A DNA stretch of 64,000 nucleotides from Candidatus Altimarinota bacterium (lineage in GTDB: Bacteria > Patescibacteriota > Gracilibacteria > UBA4473), in contig JAIPJB010000002.1 in the NCBI GenBank assembly GCA_021734395.1, forward strand, positions 62,001 through 126,000. The letters are read 5' to 3'. A program made the translations under genes and the position numbers. Position 1 is the stretch's first letter. Each line of letters begins with the position of its first letter. Below the pieces are notes generated by a model. It was given only the letters and a program-made list of their open reading frames with translations. It did not search any database and was not told where the DNA came from. Of this stretch, positions 5,937-51,010 are shown piece after piece.

Positions 5937-6133
5937 TGTGAAAGCAAGTTAAAAAACGAAGAAGCAATAAACCCAGATAAGACTGGGGTCCCCAGAGTAC
6001 GTAAAGCGTACGATGGGGAGAGGAGGATAGGACGAAATAAGCGAAACCCCGCCTGAGCGGGATGAAGCAATGAAGTCATTGACGACGACGGGTGTCCTTC
6101 AGTAACAGATTCTGACGTAAAATATGTTTTCAT
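5933..6133 (-). pseudogene. Duplicated metK 5' end (66-codon frame, copy 2)
   Basis: The first 15 codons equal those of metK (ends ...SVTEGHP); after that the frame runs through the repeat element and encodes an unrelated Ser/Leu/Pro-rich stretch ending at a TGA that overlaps the true metK ATG (ATGA). It lacks all catalytic parts, so it is a start-region duplicate and not a working enzyme. It could be translated and pass ribosomes to metK by stop/start coupling. No Shine-Dalgarno site precedes any of the three ATGs, which have nearly the same upstream bases. Confidence 0.7.
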
Positions 6134-6330
6134 TGTGAAACCAAGTTAAAAAACAAAGAAGCAATAAACCCAGATAAGACCGGGGTCCCCAGAGTACGTA
6201 AAGCGTACGATGGGGAGAGGAGGATAGGACGAAATAAGCGAAACCCCGCCCAAGCGGGATGAAGCAATGAAGTCATTGACGACGACGGGTGTCCTTCGGT
6301 AACAGATTCTGAGGTGAAATATGTTTTCAT
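6130..6330 (-). pseudogene. Duplicated metK 5' end (66-codon frame, copy 3, closest to riboswitch)
   Basis: Same structure as the copy at 5933-6133: 15 codons identical to metK, then 51 codons read from the repeat element, with a TGA that overlaps the next ATG. This is the first start codon met by a ribosome on the riboswitch-controlled transcript. Its upstream flank differs from the other two copies after about 10 nt, because it joins the riboswitch terminator region rather than another repeat. The two 66-residue products differ by only a few residues, so the duplication is recent or under homogenisation. Confidence 0.65.
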
Positions 6331-6344
6331 TGTGAAAGCAGATT

Positions 6345-6370
6345 TAAAAAAAGAAGGAGTGATACTTCTT
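6345..6370 (-). terminator. Riboswitch expression-platform terminator
   Basis: Read on the minus strand, a 6-bp stem (AAGAAG/CTTCTT, 6365-6370 with 6351-6356) with an 8-nt loop is followed by a run of T (6350-6345). Its first two bases also belong to the 3' strand of riboswitch helix P1, so the two structures touch. It fits an intrinsic terminator that acts when SAM is bound. The stem is short, so strength is uncertain. Confidence 0.6.
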
Positions 6371-6467
6371 ATCGAGTTTTATCCCGTCTGAGTGGAGCAC
6401 CTTATTCCGCCGAATAGGTTGCTGGGAGTTCATTGAGTCTCAGACCTCTTCCTCCCTCTCGATAATA
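6367..6467 (-). promoter_or_regulatory. SAM-I-type riboswitch upstream of metK
   Basis: On the minus strand the aptamer is closed by P1, TTATCGAG (6458-6465) pairing with CTCGATAA (6369-6376). Inside come AGAGG, the conserved ATGAACTCCCAGCAACC-like block (ending at about 6417), a P3 hairpin (TATTCGGCGGAATA), GGTGCTCC, and a final hairpin region before P1 closes. The GCAACC and AGGTGC blocks and their order are hallmarks of the SAM-I (S box) family. The position upstream of metK matches its usual targets. Basis: motif recognition by eye; a covariance-model search would settle it. A terminator hairpin follows directly. Confidence 0.87.
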
Positions 6468-6477
6468 AGCAGATCAA

Positions 6478-25802: not shown

Positions 25803-26100
25803 AATGGCAGGCGCACCTGCCGGTAGACAGGAAAGGAAAAAAACGTCCAAACGCGAACATGGGGTAGCTGAATACGAGGAAGAGGAGTGAGTGGAACGAA
25901 CGAATCTGTTAAACGAGTATGAAGACCTCCATGTGAGCGAGACGAAGAGAAAACGAAATAAACAAAACTCCGCAAAAGCGGAGTGAAGGAATGAAGTTTT
26001 TCTCTGAGGATGGCAGGGAAGGAAATTCTCTCATTCTCTCCCGCCTTGGCGGGATTCGAAGTCGAAAACATTTTCATCAGCTCGAACACTCGCTGTGAAA
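25803..26100. repeat. Dispersed repeat region, direct copy
   Basis: Non-coding. Contains GGGTAGCTGA (25862-25871), a GAAGACCTCCATGTGAGCGAG segment in two parts around 25920-25940, then CGAAATAAACAAAACTCCGC, an ACTCCGC/GCGGAGT hairpin (about 25967-25984) and GAAGGAATGAAGT. The last part repeats the skeleton of the metK repeat element (CGAAATAAGCGAAAC, hairpin, GAAGCAATGAAGT). A CCCGCCTTGGCGGGA hairpin follows at about 26040-26054. The first part recurs inverted at 26371-26530, on the other side of the tRNA genes. Confidence 0.6.
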
Positions 26101-26188
26101 ATGCGAACCCTTGGGTTCAATTCCTCTAGTGCTTCGCACAAGGCAAAAAAGAGGCTGCGTCCCTTTGGGGGCGCACTCTCTTTTTTGC

Positions 26189-26262
26189 TGGCAGGCGCGG
26201 AAGGAATCGAACCCTCAACCTCGGTTTTGGAGACCGATGTTATACCATTTAACTACGCGCCT
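26189..26262 (-). tRNA. tRNA-Trp (anticodon CCA)
   Basis: Minus-strand cloverleaf: acceptor AGGCGCG (26262-26256) pairs with CGCGCCT; D-arm GTTAAATGGTATAAC; anticodon stem TCGGT/ACCGA with loop CTCCAAA, giving anticodon CCA; T-arm with TTCGATT; discriminator G at 26192 and an encoded CCA end at 26191-26189. All stems close well. No other complete Trp tRNA is in the window. Confidence 0.95.
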
Positions 26263-26292
26263 GTGGCAATTGAATTGTGAAAGATTGTTTAG

Positions 26293-26361
26293 TAGCGCGG
26301 TAGGAATCGCCCCGCCTTGGCGGGGTTGGAGACCGATGTTATACCATTTAACTACGCGCCT
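26293..26361 (-). pseudogene. tRNA-Trp pseudogene with hairpin replacement
   Basis: The 36 nt from 26361 to 26326 are identical to the 5' half of tRNA-Trp, including D-arm and anticodon. The next 17 nt of the real gene (3' anticodon stem, variable loop, start of T-arm) are replaced by a 16-nt GC hairpin of the CCCCGCC/GGCGGGG type (26310-26325). Then the T-arm and acceptor end resume with a few changes. No CCA is encoded and the T-loop is damaged, so it cannot be a normal tRNA. It lies 63 nt upstream of the intact gene on the same strand. Confidence 0.85.
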
Positions 26362-26370
26362 TCGTCGCTG

Positions 26371-26530
26371 AATCACTCCGTTGGACTTATTCGTCTGCGA
26401 CGAATTTTGTCATACTTCGTGATCGCTCCTTCTCGCTCACAGAGAGGTCTTCCGATTCGCTTACGAAATTTCTCGCTACACTCGAAATTTCTACTCATCC
26501 TCAGCTACCCTCTGTTCGCGGAAAATTATG
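26371..26530. repeat. Dispersed repeat region, inverted copy
   Basis: Non-coding stretch between the tRNA pair and the DEAD-helicase gene. On the minus strand it reads GGGTAGCTGAGGATGAG, then GGAAGACCTCTCTGTGAGCGAG in the same order and spacing style as the region at 25862-25940, so the two flank the tRNA-Trp genes in opposite orientation. The strand-symmetric, Cys/Gly-codon-free character and lack of a stable frame argue against a gene. The rest to 26649 shows no clear feature. Confidence 0.5.
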
Positions 26531-43046: not shown

Positions 43047-44510
43047 ATGAATGCTGCCTCTCCCGACGAACTCAGAAAGTTTCTTGAACTGCCCTATTCC
43101 GAACTCGAAAAAAGAAATCTGGAAATAAAACAACTCGCTACCGAGGGAAAGACCGAGAAATTTATGCAGCAAAAAATAGAGAAATATCTCTCAACCGAAG
43201 AGCATGTAAAAGCTATAACCATTGCTTTCTCCGACATGGAAGGGAAGCTCCACATGCTGGACTACGATAAAAAGTTTTTCCTTTCCTCCCATGAAAATCT
43301 GACTTTTGACGGATCCTCGGTCAAAGGTTTTACGGAACTGAACATGTCGGATCTCCGCCTAAAACCCGATTGGAATTCTTTTCGGATTCTGCCGTCTGAT
43401 GTTTTTGGAGCCGGAAAAGTGCTTATGTTTGGATTTGTCTGCAATCATGACGGTACGTATTTTCCGAGTGATTTTCGGGGACGTCTCGCACAATATCTCT
43501 CGAAACTCAAAACGAAAAAAATGGCGGCTTTTATGGCTCCAGAAATCGAAGGTTTTCTTTTTCGGGGGACCGATGTCGAACAATCCTATCAAGAAGAAAA
43601 AGGATTTGAACTCGTCACAAAGGGGGGATACTTTAATGCGCTTCCCAAAGATGAAATGCGACAATTTATTGATAAAGTCGCAGAAGTCCAGCGCGCATTG
43701 GGATTTGAAAACGAAAAAGATCACGGAGAAGTGGCGCCGTCACAATTTGAAATTAATTATCGATATGCAGAACTGATGACTGCTTGTGATCAGCTACTGC
43801 TGTATAAATTAACCGCTCGACAGGTCGCCAAACTCATGGGATTTACGGCTTGTTTTATTCCCAAACCCGTCACCGGCATCAACGGATCAGGGATGCATAC
43901 AAACCTGAGTATAACCAAAAACGGAAAAAATATTTTTTATGATGGAAAGTCACCCGAGCGTATTTCGGCTTTTGCAAAAAAGTTTATTACCGGTGTTCTG
44001 CACTACGCTCCTGATTATTGCCTGAGCATTTGCTCGAGTGTGAATGCGTACCGACGCTTGGATCCGAATTTTGAAGCCCCAAACGAAATGAAGCATTCCG
44101 CCTGTGATCGAGGATCGATGGTTCGTATTCCTCTGGGAAATTCCAAATCAGCACGAATTGAAATCCGATCCGTATCTCCGGACGCAAATCCCTATCTTTC
44201 ATTGTATTGTATTCTGCATGCCGGATTCTCCGCCGTAGAAATATCAGAAAAAGAATACGAAAATATGCAAAAAAAGAATTGTCAGAGAAAGATAAAAAAA
44301 CTCTGGCCCACCCTCCATGATGCCCTCAACGCATTCGGTCAGTCTGATTTTATGCAAAAAATACTCGGAAAAGGTCAGCACAAAAAATATTTTCAACTCA
44401 AACAAGAAGTCGCACGACGAAGTCCTCGAGAACTAGGGGAAAAAATAAAACGAGGAGAAGTTATCTATCACCATGAAGTAACCAATCAAATTCTCTGGAA
44501 CGATTTTTAA
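43047..44510 (+). CDS. glnA: Glutamine synthetase, type I
   Basis: 487 residues. Makes glutamine from glutamate, ammonia and ATP. A helical N-terminal addition (about 1-50) precedes the catalytic fold: FDGSSVKGF near 89-97, MAPEIEGFLF, KDHGEVAPSQFEINY near 227-241, GINGSGMHTNLSI near 277-289 and RIEIRSVSPDANPYLSLYCIL near 371-390. The adenylylation loop (NLYDLP type) is not visible, which fits the GSI-alpha form. It is divergent from a TrmB-type regulator. No glnB or amt gene is nearby. Confidence 0.95.
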   Translation: MNAASPDELRKFLELPYSELEKRNLEIKQLATEGKTEKFMQQKIEKYLSTEEHVKAITIAFSDMEGKLHMLDYDKKFFLSSHENLTFDGSSVKGFTELNMSDLRLKPDWNSFRILPSDVFGAGKVLMFGFVCNHDGTYFPSDFRGRLAQYLSKLKTKKMAAFMAPEIEGFLFRGTDVEQSYQEEKGFELVTKGGYFNALPKDEMRQFIDKVAEVQRALGFENEKDHGEVAPSQFEINYRYAELMTACDQLLLYKLTARQVAKLMGFTACFIPKPVTGINGSGMHTNLSITKNGKNIFYDGKSPERISAFAKKFITGVLHYAPDYCLSICSSVNAYRRLDPNFEAPNEMKHSACDRGSMVRIPLGNSKSARIEIRSVSPDANPYLSLYCILHAGFSAVEISEKEYENMQKKNCQRKIKKLWPTLHDALNAFGQSDFMQKILGKGQHKKYFQLKQEVARRSPRELGEKIKRGEVIYHHEVTNQILWNDF

Positions 44511-44511
44511 A

Positions 44512-44750
44512 CATAAAAAAAGGAAGGCGCAGGATATACCATATGCCTTCCTTGTTCGGGGGGGAGTTCTCTCTCCTTCCTGTCCCGATAGATCTTCGCA
44601 AAACCCGCGCAAAGGGTTAACTCAAACACGAGTTTACGAAAATCAAAAAATGAAGCGCCCTTCCCAGCGAAACCCCTTCCAGGGGTGATAGTACCAGCCA
44701 TCAATGCCGGGAAGAGCAAAATATTCCTGTCCCCGTAAACAAGGAGGAAC
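44512..44750 (-). ncRNA. Candidate structured non-coding RNA, unassigned
   Basis: Minus-strand transcript of about 240 nt between glnA and the next gene. P1: CCTTGTT-TA-CGGGG (44744-44731) pairs with CCCCG-AACAAGG (44561-44550), 12 bp. P2: a 12-bp helix GCTCTTCCCGGC (44717-44706) with GCTGGGAAGGGC (44668-44657); its two G.U pairs exist only on this strand (the plus strand would give A.C). Inside P2 are hairpins CCCC/GGGG (44673-44685) and TGAT/ATCA. Further hairpins: AACTC/GAGTT, AACCC/GGGTT within a TTCG/CGAA stem, and GGAG/CTCC. It has TTGACA promoter and terminator. It does not match RNase P, tmRNA, SRP or any riboswitch I know by sequence. Confidence 0.65.
44520..44553 (-). terminator. 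Terminator of the candidate ncRNA
   Basis: Minus-strand stem AAGGAAGGC/GCCTTCCTT (44553-44545 with 44528-44520), extended inside by ATAT/ATAT, followed by T bases from the A-run at 44515-44519. On the plus strand there is no T-run, so it serves the leftward transcript rather than glnA. Its first four bases also belong to P1. Confidence 0.8.
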
Positions 44751-44756
44751 GATTCC

Positions 44757-44785
44757 TCTTTAGCCTTCCTCTCAAATTTTGTCAA
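44757..44785 (-). promoter_or_regulatory. Probable promoter of the candidate ncRNA
   Basis: Minus-strand perfect TTGACA (44785-44780), 17-nt spacer, then TAAAGA (44762-44757; weak -10). The predicted start near 44750 lies 6 nt before helix P1 opens, which agrees with the fold. Confidence 0.5.
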
Positions 44786-44835: not shown

Positions 44836-46059
44836 ATGAAAACCTTCTTTTGGGTCTGCTTGGGACTTCTCATTCCTGGCATGTTGCTCCGAATACCAGT
44901 CGGGGGAGCGGGGATTTTGGCGACTGATATCATTGTTCCCTTTTTCTGTCTGCTGTGGTTGGCAAAACAAATAATCGTCGAAAGACACTTCTCTCGTCCC
45001 TCTTTTCTTTTGCCCGGATTTATTTTTTTGGGAATTGCGAGCATCAGTTTCTTTGGAGGAGCGGGATCGCTGTTTCCCGTGGAGCAAATTATTTCTGGAT
45101 CATATCTGGTGCGTATTGCCTATTTCCTCCTTTTTGGATGGGCAGCTCATGACCTTTTTCGCCGCACCGAAGAACAAGAAAAATTCTGGAAGAGATTTTT
45201 TTGGATTGCGAGTATTGTTTTGCTTTTGGGGTTTATTCAGTTTTACTTTGTTCCGGATATTTCCCGTTGGTCAACAGAAGGAGGCCTTGATCCCCATACG
45301 GGAAGACTCCTCGGAACATGGCTAGATCCGAATTTTATGGCAGGATTTATCAGTTTTCTTTTCCCTCTGGGTCTTGGGTATTGGTATCAACTCCGAAAGA
45401 AAAAACAAAAAATAGGATTTTCTTTTTTTCTGATTGCTTGTGCTCTGGCACTTTTCTTTACTTTTTCACGCAGCGGATATCTGGCGGGGGCTTTTGGGGT
45501 CGGTCTATTTCTCGTCCTCCGAGATCCGAAAGTATTACTGATTTTGCTGCTCTGTGTGGGAATCGGTATTGCTTCCAATCAGCGCGCCCAAAAACGACTG
45601 ACCGAATTTACCGGTACGATTTCAGCACTGCTCCTCCATGACACCGATGAGATTGATCCGACGGCGAATCTTCGCCTAAAAAGCTGGCAGGAAAGCCTGA
45701 GCTTGTGGGAAAAATATCCAATACTAGGCATCGGATACAATACCTATCGATATCGTGCATCGGAAGAAGGAATCGTAGATGAAAATTACTTTTCTTCCGG
45801 AGGGTCTGATTCTACTCACATTACGATCTTAGTGACCAGTGGCATCATCGGATTTCTTGCTTTTTTATGGTTTTACGGCACTCTTTTTTGGAAAAACGCA
45901 CAGCGATTTTTTTGGGAAAAAAACGAACTTTTTTGGGGATTTAGTGCCGGAGTTGCAGCGCTCTTCCTTCATGGAATATTTGTGAATTCGATCTTTTTCC
46001 CGCTTCTTTTTCTTCCGGTAATAGCCATTGCTGGTGTCTTAGAACCTTCTCAATCATGA
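44836..46059 (+). CDS. O-antigen-ligase-like membrane protein
   Basis: 407 residues from the ATG at 44836 (an open frame starts at 44779, within the ncRNA promoter region). Ten or more helices, with the large extracytoplasmic loop of the Wzy_C/O-antigen ligase family: GRLLGTWLDPNFMAGFI and later RLKSWQESLSLWEKYPILGIGYNTYRY, then SDSTHITILVTSGIIGF. Members join or polymerise lipid-linked sugars outside the membrane. The stop overlaps the DUF4012 gene start by 4 nt; this pair is common in candidate-phyla genomes. Likely acts in surface polysaccharide or glycosylation. Confidence 0.87.
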   Translation: MKTFFWVCLGLLIPGMLLRIPVGGAGILATDIIVPFFCLLWLAKQIIVERHFSRPSFLLPGFIFLGIASISFFGGAGSLFPVEQIISGSYLVRIAYFLLFGWAAHDLFRRTEEQEKFWKRFFWIASIVLLLGFIQFYFVPDISRWSTEGGLDPHTGRLLGTWLDPNFMAGFISFLFPLGLGYWYQLRKKKQKIGFSFFLIACALALFFTFSRSGYLAGAFGVGLFLVLRDPKVLLILLLCVGIGIASNQRAQKRLTEFTGTISALLLHDTDEIDPTANLRLKSWQESLSLWEKYPILGIGYNTYRYRASEEGIVDENYFSSGGSDSTHITILVTSGIIGFLAFLWFYGTLFWKNAQRFFWEKNELFWGFSAGVAALFLHGIFVNSIFFPLLFLPVIAIAGVLEPSQS

Positions 46060-47846
46060 AAAAAGCAATTACTTTTTTGGGTATAATTTTGGTTGGAGGT
46101 GGGCTCTGGGTTTTTTCTCGAGGAGAAAATAGAGAAACCGCGCAACTCCAAGGAAATCTTCTGCAACTCGGAGAAAAAATTCAAACGGCTCAAACAGACT
46201 TCACACAGTGGAAAGAAATCTCTGCAGAAGCAAACAATATCCCCAATTTTTACCCTTTTTCGCGCCTCAGAAATGCATTGGAGGAAACCGGAAAACTCAT
46301 CGAAAAAATCGAGAAAATACAGAGCAGTATGGATCTCCTTTGGAAGAGTCCCCTTCCCACAGAACAAGTCCAACAAATATTTTCTGAACTGAAAGAAATC
46401 CAAAACTCACTGAATATTATTGAAACGAATATTGATTCCTTCCCCAATCTTTTTCTCTCCGAACAACAAGAGCTTCAAAAAAAGATTCTGCTTCGTTCTC
46501 TCCGTCTGGCCAATCAAGTATTCGACGATATAGATACTTTTGAAAGAGTTTTTGAGGAATGGACAGGAGATGGTGAACGACTTCTGATTTTGTTGCAAAA
46601 CCAAAACGAACCTCGTTCTACTGGGGGTTTTGCAGGAAGTATGATCGTGGTTGATTTTGGGCCGGAAGTGATTTCTTGGGAATTTTTTGACACGTATGCA
46701 CTCGATCGAAATATTCCTCCCCAAGCACAACTTCCAGCACCCGAGTTTTTTCATGATCTTTCCCAAACGATTTCTCTGCGAGACGCAAATTTTTGGCCTG
46801 ATTTTACGCAGAGTAGTGAACAATATCGTCATTTTTTCGAGAGCATTGGAAAACCGATTCCCAATACGATCGTGGCTCTAAATCTCAATGTAATAGAGGA
46901 ATTTCTGAAACTCACAGGTCCCGTGAAACTGGAAAAATGGGGCGTAACTCTCGACAAAGACAACTTTGATCTTGTGCTTCAATTTCTGGTAGAGGGCAAA
47001 GTGACCGGTCGATTTGATACCAAACTTCCGATTCTTCTTTTTGCCGAAAAACTTTTCGACCCTGATCATCTTCAATCTCTTTCCCCTCAAGAACTCCTGA
47101 CCTTTGATATGCAGAGCTTCATCGAAGAACAGAATATTCTCGCACATTCGCACAATAAAAAACTCCAAAAACTTTTTGAAAAATGGGGCATCAGCGGACA
47201 AATATGGCAAAAAAAAGAAGCTGATAATTTTCTCTATTTTGATTTTGTGTCCGTCGGAGCTAATAAATCCGAAAAATTCCTGTGGACCAAGCTCTGGCAT
47301 GATAGCAATATCCAGTCTGATGGAACCGTGATAAATACAATCGAAATCACCCGAAGTCACGCCCTGAGACAGGGAGAGATAGAGCAACTTTTGGGATTCT
47401 CCTCTTGGCCACAAAATCTTCGAGAACTCATGACCGAAGAACTCGCTTGGAAATTAGGAGCCGGACAAAACAGAACCATACTTCGCCTTTTTGTCCCTCG
47501 GGAAGCAAAACTTTTGGAATACGAAAATCCTTCTGGAGGGCTCGACGTGCATATGGCAGAAAATAAATCATGGCGAATCTTAAATATTCCACTCTTTGTG
47601 GCGCCCGGAGAAAAATTAACCGCAACCGTACAGTATTCAACTCGTATCGAAGAAGGAAGCGCGGCTTGGCGCCCTTATTTTTTGCAGCTCGAGGGAACTC
47701 CTGGGAGAGACGAAAAAACATCGTTTTTGTCGACGATTTCAACCCCAAGAAATGGAACGTTCCGAGCTGAGACACAAAACATAGGACGCCCCCAAAAACT
47801 TATTGACACTGATTTTCGTGCTGTGGTAGAGTTTGATTTGAAATAA
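46056..47846 (+). CDS. DUF4012 protein
   Basis: 596 residues. N-terminal membrane anchor (about 4-22), helical region with coiled-coil character (30-180), then the DUF4012 signature ERLLILLQNQNEPRSTGGFAGSMIVVDF at about 169-196 and the later IVALNLNVIEEFLKLTGPVKLEKW at about 270-295. The fold is remotely like LCP phosphotransferases; DUF4012 proteins are widespread in Patescibacteria and Chloroflexi next to surface-polymer genes. It is coupled to the O-antigen-ligase-like gene upstream and followed after 8 nt by an acidic lipoprotein. A role in attaching polymer to the surface is inferred from context. Confidence 0.85.
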   Translation: MKKAITFLGIILVGGGLWVFSRGENRETAQLQGNLLQLGEKIQTAQTDFTQWKEISAEANNIPNFYPFSRLRNALEETGKLIEKIEKIQSSMDLLWKSPLPTEQVQQIFSELKEIQNSLNIIETNIDSFPNLFLSEQQELQKKILLRSLRLANQVFDDIDTFERVFEEWTGDGERLLILLQNQNEPRSTGGFAGSMIVVDFGPEVISWEFFDTYALDRNIPPQAQLPAPEFFHDLSQTISLRDANFWPDFTQSSEQYRHFFESIGKPIPNTIVALNLNVIEEFLKLTGPVKLEKWGVTLDKDNFDLVLQFLVEGKVTGRFDTKLPILLFAEKLFDPDHLQSLSPQELLTFDMQSFIEEQNILAHSHNKKLQKLFEKWGISGQIWQKKEADNFLYFDFVSVGANKSEKFLWTKLWHDSNIQSDGTVINTIEITRSHALRQGEIEQLLGFSSWPQNLRELMTEELAWKLGAGQNRTILRLFVPREAKLLEYENPSGGLDVHMAENKSWRILNIPLFVAPGEKLTATVQYSTRIEEGSAAWRPYFLQLEGTPGRDEKTSFLSTISTPRNGTFRAETQNIGRPQKLIDTDFRAVVEFDLK

Positions 47847-47854
47847 CCTTTTAT

Positions 47855-48589
47855 ATGAAAAAAATATATTCCGCTTTCGTTTTGTTCGGAGTCCTTTTTC
47901 TTTTTGGCTGTCAAGATCAGCCAGAACCGAAAAAATTACAACCCAAAGACATTGTCCCTCCCTCTCAGGAAGAGGCTCTGATGCAAGAGGAGGAAATGCC
48001 TTCTTCAATGAATGAAGAAGAGACTCGCACTCCTGCCTCCGACGAAACAACCATCGAAGAAGCGCAAGAAGTAGATCTCGAATCGGAAACTGTTGTCATC
48101 GAAGAAGTAATCATTGACGAAGAAGCTATGGAGATGAATACGGGAACGGAGGAAGAAGGAGAAGCAGAAATGCAGGTCGAAGAGGAATCACAAACAGAAA
48201 TGGATGCCGAGGTCGAAACTGAGGCTGAAGTAAAAGCGGAAGTTGAAGCTGAGCCTGAAACAGAAGAAGAAACCTCTGAACCCACAGAACCAGAAGTGGT
48301 TTTAACCGAAGAGGACGCTCTTTCCTACGAGAATGCCGAGGACTGCAAAGACGATGGCGGAAGCTGGATTCGAGGACGAGGAGCAGACCGAAGTTACCTC
48401 TGTCTCAAAGCTTATTCTGATGCTGGTCAGCCCTGTGCCAATAGCGACGAATGCCAGGGAAAATGCCTCGGACGACTCAATGAAGAAACGGAAGAATACG
48501 AAGGCTATTGCCAAAAAAACAACAATCCTTTCGGTTGTTTTGTCGAAATGAAAAAAGGCGAAGCACAAGACGAAGTGTGTGTCGAATAA
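47855..48589 (+). CDS. Acidic lipoprotein with Cys-rich C-terminus
   Basis: 244 residues. Lipobox LFLFGC (Cys 19). Residues 30-150 are almost pure Glu with Ala, Thr and Val, including runs of E-A-E-V-E type, clearly disordered and very negatively charged. Residues 155-240 form a compact Cys-rich domain (DCKDDGGSW, CANSDECQGKCLGR, YCQKNNNPFGCFVEM, EVCVE; eight Cys) that probably folds by disulfides. The gene lies 8 nt after DUF4012 and converges with miaB 1 nt away. It may be a surface spacer or metal-binding stalk. No family recognised. Confidence 0.75.
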   Translation: MKKIYSAFVLFGVLFLFGCQDQPEPKKLQPKDIVPPSQEEALMQEEEMPSSMNEEETRTPASDETTIEEAQEVDLESETVVIEEVIIDEEAMEMNTGTEEEGEAEMQVEEESQTEMDAEVETEAEVKAEVEAEPETEEETSEPTEPEVVLTEEDALSYENAEDCKDDGGSWIRGRGADRSYLCLKAYSDAGQPCANSDECQGKCLGRLNEETEEYEGYCQKNNNPFGCFVEMKKGEAQDEVCVE

Positions 48590-48590
48590 T

Positions 48591-50000
48591 TCAGGAAAGA
48601 ACCTGAAGACTCTCATTTTTCACGCGTCGCTGAATACGCTCTTCGTGTTCGGGAAGCTCTCCATTGAGGATATATCCGTCTCGAGCACGAACTCGGGTCA
48701 AAACCTCTTTTCCTTTTAAGGGACGTCCAGAAAGAAAATACGTCTCGAAAAATTCTCGACTGCGCCCACCATTGAGATACAAACCATTTTCTTGTTTTTC
48801 TGAGGATTCGACCAAAATCTGAAGTTCCTTTCCGATAGATTTTTCTCGATACTCCCAAGACGTTTTTTTGATCAGATCATCAAATCGATGAAATCGATCT
48901 TTTTTGATTTCCAGAGGAACGAATTCTTTTTGCATCCTAGCTGCAGGGGTATTTCGTCGAGGAGAAAAAATCGCCGTGTAAGAGAAATCAAACTTCATTC
49001 TCTGAGCAAAGTTCAAAAGTTCCTGGAAATCTTCTTCGGTCTCTCCCGGAAATCCGACAATGATGTCAGTAGCGATCGTCACTCCTGGAATAGCTTGGCG
49101 AATACGGTGAATAATGTCTTCGTATTTTTCGATAGTGTAGTTGCGATTCATCGCACGAAGCATTCGATCCGATCCGTGCTGTACTGGCAAATGCACATAC
49201 GGACAGGATGTTTTCATTTCTGCTAAAGCAGAAATAACATCGTCCGTAAAATCCTGCGGATGAGGAGAAGTAAAACGCAGTCGAGACAATCCTTTTTCGT
49301 GGAGGGTATCAATTTTTCGGAGCAACTCCGCAAAGCATTTTTTTCCTTTCCACTTGTACGAATTAACATTTTGCCCCAGAAGCGTGATCTCCAGCGCTCC
49401 TCGCTCTACATGTTTCTTGCATTCGGAAAAAATGTCGTCCATGGGACGAGAGATCTCTCTTCCTCGGGTGTAGGGAACAATGCAGTACGTGCAAAATTTA
49501 TCGCACCCCTGCATGATCGGCACAAAAACCTGTGTTTTATTTTGTACAGACGGGACAATATCAAAATAATTCCGCTCGGGATCTAAACCCGGCTCCGCGC
49601 AACCCGATCCCGGACTCTGCAAGTATCCAGAGAAATCATGCTCAGGAAAAGAGGACTCGAGGAGTTTCGGAATGCGTGCGGTATCCTCAATCCGAAAAAC
49701 AAAGCCTATAGGATCGTACTGCAGTAATTCATCTCTAGAAGTGTGTCTGTCCCCCGTCTGGCGCACCATACATCCCGTCACCGCGATCAAAGCATGGGGG
49801 TGTTTTTTTTTCTGATTGACGATAAAGCCATACGCTTTGTCCTCTGATTTTTGTCGAACCGAACAGGTATTCACGATGATAACATCAGGATCTTTTTTTT
49901 CAGCCGGTTCAAATCCACACCGCTGCAAAACCGAAGCGACTCGCTCGGAATCAGAGTAATTCATCTGGCAACCAAAAGTCTGGATACTGTAGGTAGGCAT
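48591..50000 (-). CDS. miaB: tRNA-2-methylthio-N6-dimethylallyladenosine synthase
   Basis: 469 residues. Radical-SAM methylthiotransferase that modifies A37 of tRNAs. The N-terminal UPF0004 domain has FGCQMNYSDSERV, NTCSVRQKSEDKAYG and VTGCMVRQ (cluster Cys). The radical-SAM cluster is in QGCDKFCTYCIVPYTRGRE near 163-181. TRAM domain at the C-terminus (about 385-450). The order NTCSVR..., then CxxxCxxC of the FCTYC type, is MiaB rather than RimO or MtaB. It is a single gene; its start matches the usual MiaB N-terminus. Confidence 0.93.
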   Translation of the reverse strand: MPTYSIQTFGCQMNYSDSERVASVLQRCGFEPAEKKDPDVIIVNTCSVRQKSEDKAYGFIVNQKKKHPHALIAVTGCMVRQTGDRHTSRDELLQYDPIGFVFRIEDTARIPKLLESSFPEHDFSGYLQSPGSGCAEPGLDPERNYFDIVPSVQNKTQVFVPIMQGCDKFCTYCIVPYTRGREISRPMDDIFSECKKHVERGALEITLLGQNVNSYKWKGKKCFAELLRKIDTLHEKGLSRLRFTSPHPQDFTDDVISALAEMKTSCPYVHLPVQHGSDRMLRAMNRNYTIEKYEDIIHRIRQAIPGVTIATDIIVGFPGETEEDFQELLNFAQRMKFDFSYTAIFSPRRNTPAARMQKEFVPLEIKKDRFHRFDDLIKKTSWEYREKSIGKELQILVESSEKQENGLYLNGGRSREFFETYFLSGRPLKGKEVLTRVRARDGYILNGELPEHEERIQRRVKNESLQVLS

Positions 50001-50100
50001 GCGCGCCCCATGGTGCTGAATTTGTGAAAAAAATCAAACACCTCTTTCGTATTCGAACTTTGGGATTTGAGAGTTCGAATCCAAATACTTAAAAAAATAT

Positions 50101-50128
50101 TTGCCAAAAAATAATTTCCTCGTAAAAT
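50101..50128 (+). promoter_or_regulatory. Probable promoter of the secreted Asn-rich protein gene
   Basis: TTGCCA at 50101-50106, 16-nt spacer, TAAAAT at 50123-50128. The transcript would carry a leader of about 335 nt before the ATG at 50471. Confidence 0.5.
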
Positions 50129-50235
50129 ATATATCAGTTTGCTTTCTGACGAAATCCGAAAGGATATTCTGTCAGGAGAAACGGATCTTTTACACGACGA
50201 CTTCTTTTTGGAAAATAAGACTGGAAACGGAAGGC

Positions 50236-50328
50236 GTGAGTATTCAAAAAATTTTGAAGATTTTCTTCTTCTGTTTCCTGATTTTATATTTTATTCATTT
50301 GGCTATCCCCCTCACCTTAGGAAAGTGA
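50236..50328 (+). CDS. Possible hydrophobic leader peptide
   Basis: GTG at 50236 opens a 30-codon frame: a basic start (SIQKILK), a long hydrophobic stretch of Phe, Leu and Ile, then LAIPLTLGK and a TGA at 50326-50328. GGAAGG stands just before the start, too close for an ideal ribosome site. It lies wholly in the long leader and its end overlaps the first hairpin of the structured segment, so a regulatory or toxin-like peptide is possible. Low certainty. Confidence 0.25.
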   Translation: MSIQKILKIFFFCFLILYFIHLAIPLTLGK

Positions 50329-50428
50329 AGGCATTACGCAACTATCACTCACGAGAGAAAGCCGTGAGGAACCTGTCCAGCCAGCAAGCTGTGCCCGGGT
50401 CTGTCTCAATCTTATGAATAGAGACAGA
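50311..50428 (+). promoter_or_regulatory. Structured leader segment, unassigned regulatory RNA candidate
   Basis: A GC-rich block inside an AT-rich leader. Helices: CCTCAC with GTGAAGG (50310-50332), a perfect 6-bp hairpin CTCACG/CGTGAG (50348-50368), CAGC/GCTG (50378-50391), and an 8-bp hairpin TCTGTCTC/GAGACAGA (50400-50407 with 50421-50428) whose 5' part can also join the GGG upstream. It ends 42 nt before the ATG. Cyclic-di-GMP-I, ydaO, cobalamin and T-box consensus elements were looked for and not found. Could be a riboswitch or protein-bound leader. Confidence 0.4.
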
Positions 50429-50470
50429 TAAAAATATATTCATTCATAAACTAAAAAAAGGAAAAACATC

Positions 50471-51010
50471 ATGAAACGGTTAAAAAATGGAACATCCTAT
50501 CTGTTGATGTTCGCGATCTTAGCAATTATGGTCACAATGACTTTAAACGCGAACACAGAAAATACGGTAACTCAGAACGACGAAGTAAAGGTCGTATTAA
50601 ATGCTAATACGGACATGGTTGAAGCGGAAAGCATTTCTATTATTGACGGTACTGCAGCTAATATGGTTCAAAGGAACCAGGTAAACATCAGCTATGAAGA
50701 CAATGTGATGAATACGGAGGCGGCTATTGCCACGCTCCGGGTAAATCAGAACTCCGACTCAAACTTAAACTTGAATATGACGGACAACAATGCCGTTAGT
50801 GCTGAAGTAAACAATACCGATAAGTTAAGCGAAACAAACTATCTCTATTGCAATTGGGCCGGCGGGCTAGAAAACGCAAATGCAAATCAGGCTTATACAT
50901 ACTTGATGAATGATGACTCCCGGCAGCGGTTAAATAACTCAGCAAAAAATTGGACAAATGCTTGGGATATTAACGCCGCTAATCACAATATGGTAAACAG
51001 AATCTGCTAA
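50471..51010 (+). CDS. Secreted Asn-rich protein of unknown function
   Basis: 179 residues. A signal peptide (about 1-27: basic start, hydrophobic LLMFAILAIMVTMTL, then NA) leads to a mature protein unusually rich in Asn, Thr, Ala and Asp with few charges. Repeated short beta-like segments (VVLNANTDMVEAESISI, ATLRVNQNSDSNLNLNM) suggest a secreted beta-rich or fibril-like protein. Two Cys only (near 127 and at the C-terminal end, NRIC), which could form a disulfide. The gene stands alone with a 335-nt structured leader and a hairpin terminator downstream. No family recognised. Confidence 0.7.
   Translation: MKRLKNGTSYLLMFAILAIMVTMTLNANTENTVTQNDEVKVVLNANTDMVEAESISIIDGTAANMVQRNQVNISYEDNVMNTEAAIATLRVNQNSDSNLNLNMTDNNAVSAEVNNTDKLSETNYLYCNWAGGLENANANQAYTYLMNDDSRQRLNNSAKNWTNAWDINAANHNMVNRIC

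Follow-up and report, generated by a model that had tools for sequence, protein, structure and literature searches.

The gap between the glutamine synthetase gene glnA and a gene resembling Wzy_C/O-antigen ligases raises the question of what is encoded on its minus strand, i.e., whether the strongly folding sequence found there is a gene in its own right or belongs to one of its neighbours. The gap lies in a 64-kb window, the whole stretch of DNA that was analysed, from the genome of an uncultured Peregrinibacterium (here G000), and it was compared with the corresponding gap of the sole congener used, Gracilibacteria bacterium Tobar12.5m-G38 (JAIPGI010000002.1; here G001). From the sequence, we read a candidate small RNA gene on the minus strand at positions 44785-44515. 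Our preferred answer, to which we give a probability of roughly two in three, is that a lineage of the Peregrinibacteria has here a stand-alone gene for a small noncoding RNA, running from a promoter of the class used by tRNA genes to a terminator that faces glnA. Computation finds a promoter motif, a terminator and strand-specific folding in the gap and, in the matching gap of G001, a counterpart transcription unit; the stable-RNA type of the promoter, the terminator, this counterpart and the lack of any Rfam match support the prediction that the minus strand carries an orphan RNA gene.

Layout of the locus

Read along the minus strand, the gap holds TTGACA, 17 nt, TAAAGA, 5 nt, CGTTCC, about 190 nt of strong folding and then the terminator (Table 1). 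Genes were called with a simple open-frame rule. The G000 assembly, most of which was analysed, is 81% complete. For the Wzy gene, the conserved ATG at 44836 is preferred as the start over a TTG at 44779, and ATGAAARCCTTYTT is common to G000 and G001. A preliminary description of this DNA held that the intergenic space has no other purpose than the RNA, which is too strong, since the promoter of the Wzy gene should sit within the gap as well.

Table 1. Features of the glnA-Wzy gap and its flanks (positions in the window)
Feature	Position	Strand	Remarks
glnA, glutamine synthetase (flank)	43047..44510	+	PF00120/PF03951
Intrinsic terminator GGAAGGC..GCCTTCC + T7, convergent with glnA	44515..44551	-	pairing probability 1.0; terminator energy -16.5
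Predicted small RNA, ~235 nt	44515..44751	-	MFE -98.2 kcal/mol, plus strand -75.1
Alternative closing helix span (44745-44731 with 44549-44561)	44549..44745	-	competes with terminator
Second arm, long imperfect hairpin	44591..44644	-	MFE and centroid
Inner arm: 13-bp helix, three G.U pairs, two capping hairpins	44656..44718	-	MFE and centroid
CGTTCC start-site element, degenerate CGTTCTT	44746..44751	-	N5 spacing same as in tRNA promoters
-10 box TAAAGA, weak match, 17 nt 3' of -35	44757..44762	-	tRNA genes have TACAAT; motif score 12.6
-35 box TTGACA	44780..44785	-	sequence; part of tRNA-class promoter motif
Wzy_C/O-antigen ligase-like gene (flank)	44836..46059	+	PF04932

A promoter motif of the tRNA class

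Many tRNA genes of G000 are preceded by a common promoter block, TTGAC(G/A)-N16/17-TACAAT-N5-CGTTCTT, and the locus carries a degenerate copy of it, TTGACA-N17-TAAAGA-N5-CGTTCC. The perfect TTGACA box of the preliminary description is indeed present, with a 17-nt spacer to a weak -10 box, and the start predicted from the motif, near position 44751, agrees with the earlier placement of the start about 6 nt ahead of a "closing helix". A stand-alone small RNA gene is expected to have a promoter of its own, and what is found here is this tRNA-class motif; both the promoter and the start are matches in sequence rather than mapped ends.

In its strict form, the tRNA-promoter motif has 17 matches in 13 genomes of the class, 14 of which lie at ARAGORN tRNA genes. 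The remaining three precede a groES-like gene and an apparent ileS leader (the former called via a CIRCE-like operator, and both identities being a reading of the downstream sequence rather than the result of a family search) and, in the third case, lie in the glnA-Wzy gap of G001. With a weight matrix made from 17 tRNA promoters, a small set that includes G000 sites and excludes the locus itself, the locus site scores 12.6 and ranks 90th in the genome; with 23.5, the site of G001 would come about 17th in the G000 list. A generic sigma-70 scan did not list the locus site.

The intergenic gaps of G000 hold 39 sites that score at least 12.6, as against 0-2 (about 1) in shuffled or resampled sequence, and such a promoter is combined with a good terminator at 8 distinct places in these gaps, as against none in four resamplings; because the promoter elements were sought after the locus had been seen and the threshold is the locus's own score, these counts describe a class of sites and are not a formal probability. 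Among the other seven places, tRNA units account for four and the 23S rRNA leader for one, and the remaining two point toward open frames with Shine-Dalgarno-like sequences, which leaves the locus as the only place with no tRNA, rRNA or apparent gene downstream. We take this co-occurrence of promoter and terminator to be the strongest evidence that the putative RNA gene is real.

The element at the start of transcription, CGTTCC at the locus and CGTTCTT at the tRNA genes, resembles the boxA of stable-RNA (rRNA and tRNA) leaders, for which the gamma-proteobacterial consensus is GYTCTTTAANA (PMC5725501). This resemblance would fit the loading of Nus factors, and in that case the CGUUCUUU leaders may be putative NusB-S10 binding sites. 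Unlike the boxA leaders, the locus has no rRNA or tRNA downstream, and its element is degenerate. TTGAC-N16/17-TACAAT-N5-CGTTCTT is a stable-RNA promoter signature for the lineage and finds RNA genes without the need for conservation; what is gained here is this signature together with one well-framed candidate RNA.

The stable-RNA promoter block with a boxA-like start element occurs in several Peregrinibacteria, examples in G000 being contig C5 at 1274 (-) and 91007 (+), contig C6 at 123357 (-) and contig C1 at 148014 (+). At the apparent ileS site mentioned above (L246; G003:C25:78625-78665, minus strand), the tRNA-class promoter is followed by a long structured leader, a possible attenuator.

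Folding of the minus strand and the terminator

On the minus strand, positions 44512-44785 fold with -107.8 kcal/mol, which corresponds to a z of -5.5 against dinucleotide shuffles. The predicted transcript alone reaches -98.2 kcal/mol, versus -75.1 for the plus strand, and its minus-strand fold includes 14 G.U pairs. The preliminary description had pointed to G.U pairs that exist only on the minus strand, and this strand argument holds because the minus-strand fold, with its G.U pairs, is far the stronger. Nevertheless, folding alone would not make the case, since such stability is unexceptional for G000: the first 785 kb of the genome contain 137 intergenic gaps of 180 nt or more, and in a ranking of these by stability for the given G+C content the glnA-Wzy gap comes 25th. 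Known RNA genes have similar ranks in this set, the gap with the 6S RNA being 18th and that with the RNase P RNA 34th.

In the full-length MFE structure, a 5' hairpin and the two inner arms are followed by the terminator, which remains intact. The inner helix that had been described as 12 bp with two G.U pairs is present, and only its computed length and number of G.U pairs depart from that description (Table 1). The 12-bp closing helix, however, which had been attributed to the finished RNA, is absent from the full-length MFE structure, and forcing it costs 8 kcal/mol; its 3' arm is shared with the terminator, and it takes omission or weakening of the latter for the helix to form, then as a bulged helix of 13 bp. 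We considered an attenuator-like switch based on this overlap and do not claim it, because G001 has no such overlap.

The terminator, earlier described as good and followed by a T-run, is U7-tailed and ends 4 nt past the glnA stop codon. It abuts the 3' end of glnA, in line with the described convergence of the transcript on that gene, and the candidate RNA gene would thereby have an intrinsic terminator before the next gene, as is expected of a stand-alone small RNA.

Comparison with known RNA families

When the RNA was searched against Rfam 15, no family was matched at the gathering threshold, and a relaxed threshold gave only chance matches (E 0.3-4.4); the same is true of the G001 RNA. The preliminary description had seen no fit to RNase P, tmRNA, SRP RNA or common riboswitches; G000 has its RNase P RNA and its tmRNA elsewhere (at C6:174260 and C3:127970, respectively), the locus being the copy of neither. 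Neither the small nor the large SRP RNA model matched in any of 13 genomes of the class, and SRP54-type GTPases (Ffh/FtsY) were found in none of 41 genomes of the class, with 14 of 14 control genomes positive. That SRP subunits are missing in many CPR bacteria has already been noted (PMC8080830). We considered the SRP RNA as a missing housekeeping RNA that the locus might supply, and rejected it; the lineage appears to be without SRP54-type GTPases too, so that there is no need to seek its SRP RNA here.

The 6S RNAs of the class mostly fall below Rfam's gathering score. Because Rfam's 6S model is too weak for the class, we built a covariance model from 16 Peregrinibacterial 6S RNAs, and this lineage model recovers the 6S RNAs of the 16 relatives and of G000. 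The true 6S RNA of G000, missed by Rfam's model, lies at C6:157920-158078 on the minus strand.

In its layout, the locus is similar to the orphan small RNAs with a sigma-70 promoter and a Rho-independent terminator, sharing with them the promoter, the structured body, the terminator, the lack of a homology-supported frame and the convergence with a neighbour. In contrast to such intergenic RNAs, its promoter is of the class of the host's tRNA genes, with a boxA-like start, and it has no known family and no homologous sequence among the genomes searched.

The gap in the congener and the search for relatives

The gene order glnA then Wzy is kept in G001, and the gap between them has, on the same strand, a full tRNA-class promoter of the CGTTCTT type (TTGACA-N17-TAAAAA-N6-CGTTCTTT). 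This is followed by a hairpin of some 83 nt, whose pairing probability is close to 1, and by a terminator with a U-tail that points at glnA; the z of the G001 fold is -4.6. The RNA bodies of the two genomes align no better than shuffles, while the flanking genes align continuously up to the gap and the two 6S RNAs share 67% identity.

BLASTN retrieved no sequence homologue of the RNA from 60 relatives, and a single-sequence covariance model run on 20 genomes of the family matched only the RNA itself. No second copy was found within G000, and BLASTN against its own genome, phages and plasmids, as well as an exact pattern search of IMG/VR, gave only short chance matches. Outside the genus, the RNA is found neither beside glnA nor upstream of Wzy, and neither neighbour keeps the arrangement. 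The conservation in relatives to which the preliminary description had looked takes the form, in G001 only, of a counterpart unit in the matching gap and not of a homologous sequence.

The position between glnA and Wzy and the signals are common to G000 and G001 and the body is not, which may reflect fast evolution or replacement; we read the candidate as a lineage-specific RNA, probably a fast-evolving one. We would put forward tentatively, and with more doubt than conviction, the idea of a very fast-evolving structured RNA at a fixed glnA-Wzy site in a single genus of the Peregrinibacteria, with tRNA-like expression and a boxA-like start. Its body would have become unrecognisable from one species to the next, and only the type of promoter, the strong folding and the terminator would have been retained. 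As for the candidate being a new class, this is not established and could not be demonstrated here, because the genomes searched hold no homologous sequence and there is consequently no covariation to compare. We came across no publication on the small RNAs of Patescibacteria in our searches of the literature.

Alternative explanations

The preliminary description had suggested a 6S-like RNA, and an additional 6S RNA, or a divergent homologue of it, would account for the size, the abundance-type promoter and the long helices, all of which are loosely 6S-like; 6S RNA (RF00013), which measures 160-240 nt and has long helices, is likewise a stand-alone small RNA. However, the locus scores 1.4 bits in the model made from the relatives' 6S RNAs, versus 104 bits for G000's own 6S RNA, and that of G001 is also located elsewhere. 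Nor does the MFE structure, with its 5' hairpin, two arms and terminator, have the hallmark of 6S RNA, a single rod with a central bubble mimicking an open promoter, and we reject a 6S identity as extremely improbable. It also seems very improbable that the stretch is a short protein-coding gene, using either the frame at 44507-44785 (92 codons from TTG) or an inner ATG. This frame is open over the entire stretch, but it has no Pfam match and passes through both promoter and terminator, and the RNA of the congener offers no alignable sequence.

With both flanking genes on the plus strand, one might expect an element of that strand, i.e., a 3' UTR terminator of glnA or a leader of the Wzy gene, of which the minus-strand structure would be a mirror image. 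We consider this improbable: in G000 and G001 alike, the U-run 3' of the stem is present only on the minus strand, the plus strand folds worse than the minus (or, in G001, minus-equivalent) strand by 23 kcal/mol in G000 and 13 kcal/mol in G001, and the tRNA-class promoter is directed to the minus strand. Unlikely in our judgement, yet a serious rival, is a relic or neutral unit, in which a leftover stable-RNA promoter (e.g., that of a lost tRNA) remains, the terminator is kept to shield glnA from convergent transcription, and the body is unselected. Such a relic would be consistent with RNA bodies that are unrelated in sequence between aligning flanks and with the G001 promoter being the stronger of the two. 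One would not, however, expect a neutral body to fold 5.5 (G000) and 4.6 (G001) standard deviations beyond shuffles on the transcribed strand, with the caveat that other gaps of G000 also fold well.

Possible mode of action

If the locus is a stand-alone small RNA gene, as we prefer to think, minus-strand transcription would begin near 44751 from a somewhat decayed tRNA-class promoter, would yield some 235 nt of RNA folded into a 5' hairpin and two long arms, and would stop at the intrinsic terminator next to the end of glnA. The RNA itself would be the gene product and might, though our confidence in this is low, be a stable small RNA acting in trans; we infer its transcription, its stability and its regulatory role from the features described above. 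The tRNA class of the promoter suggests steady or high, growth-coupled synthesis. A local role on glnA by convergent transcription is possible.

A duplex screen of the RNA against the starts of glnA and the Wzy gene in both genomes gave unremarkable ranks. We also considered a CsrA sponge on the basis of eight GGA motifs and rejected it: the count is near the mean of dinucleotide shuffles, there is no convincing CsrA-like frame, and the G001 RNA has one GGA.

Other RNA features of the window and genome

The rRNA genes of G000 are unlinked, with 23S-5S on contig C6 at 47136-50614 (-) and 16S at 154942-156421 (+), about 100 kb apart and on opposite strands. Within the window, the most stable folding region (25960-26380) lies around tRNA-Trp, where part of the tRNA gene is repeated (26192-26262 and about 26295-26361). 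A SAM riboswitch is located at window positions 6376-6468 on the minus strand, and the stretch beside it, 6287-6357, and part of 6090-6362 both match one piece of congener DNA, which may point to a repeated or tandem aptamer.
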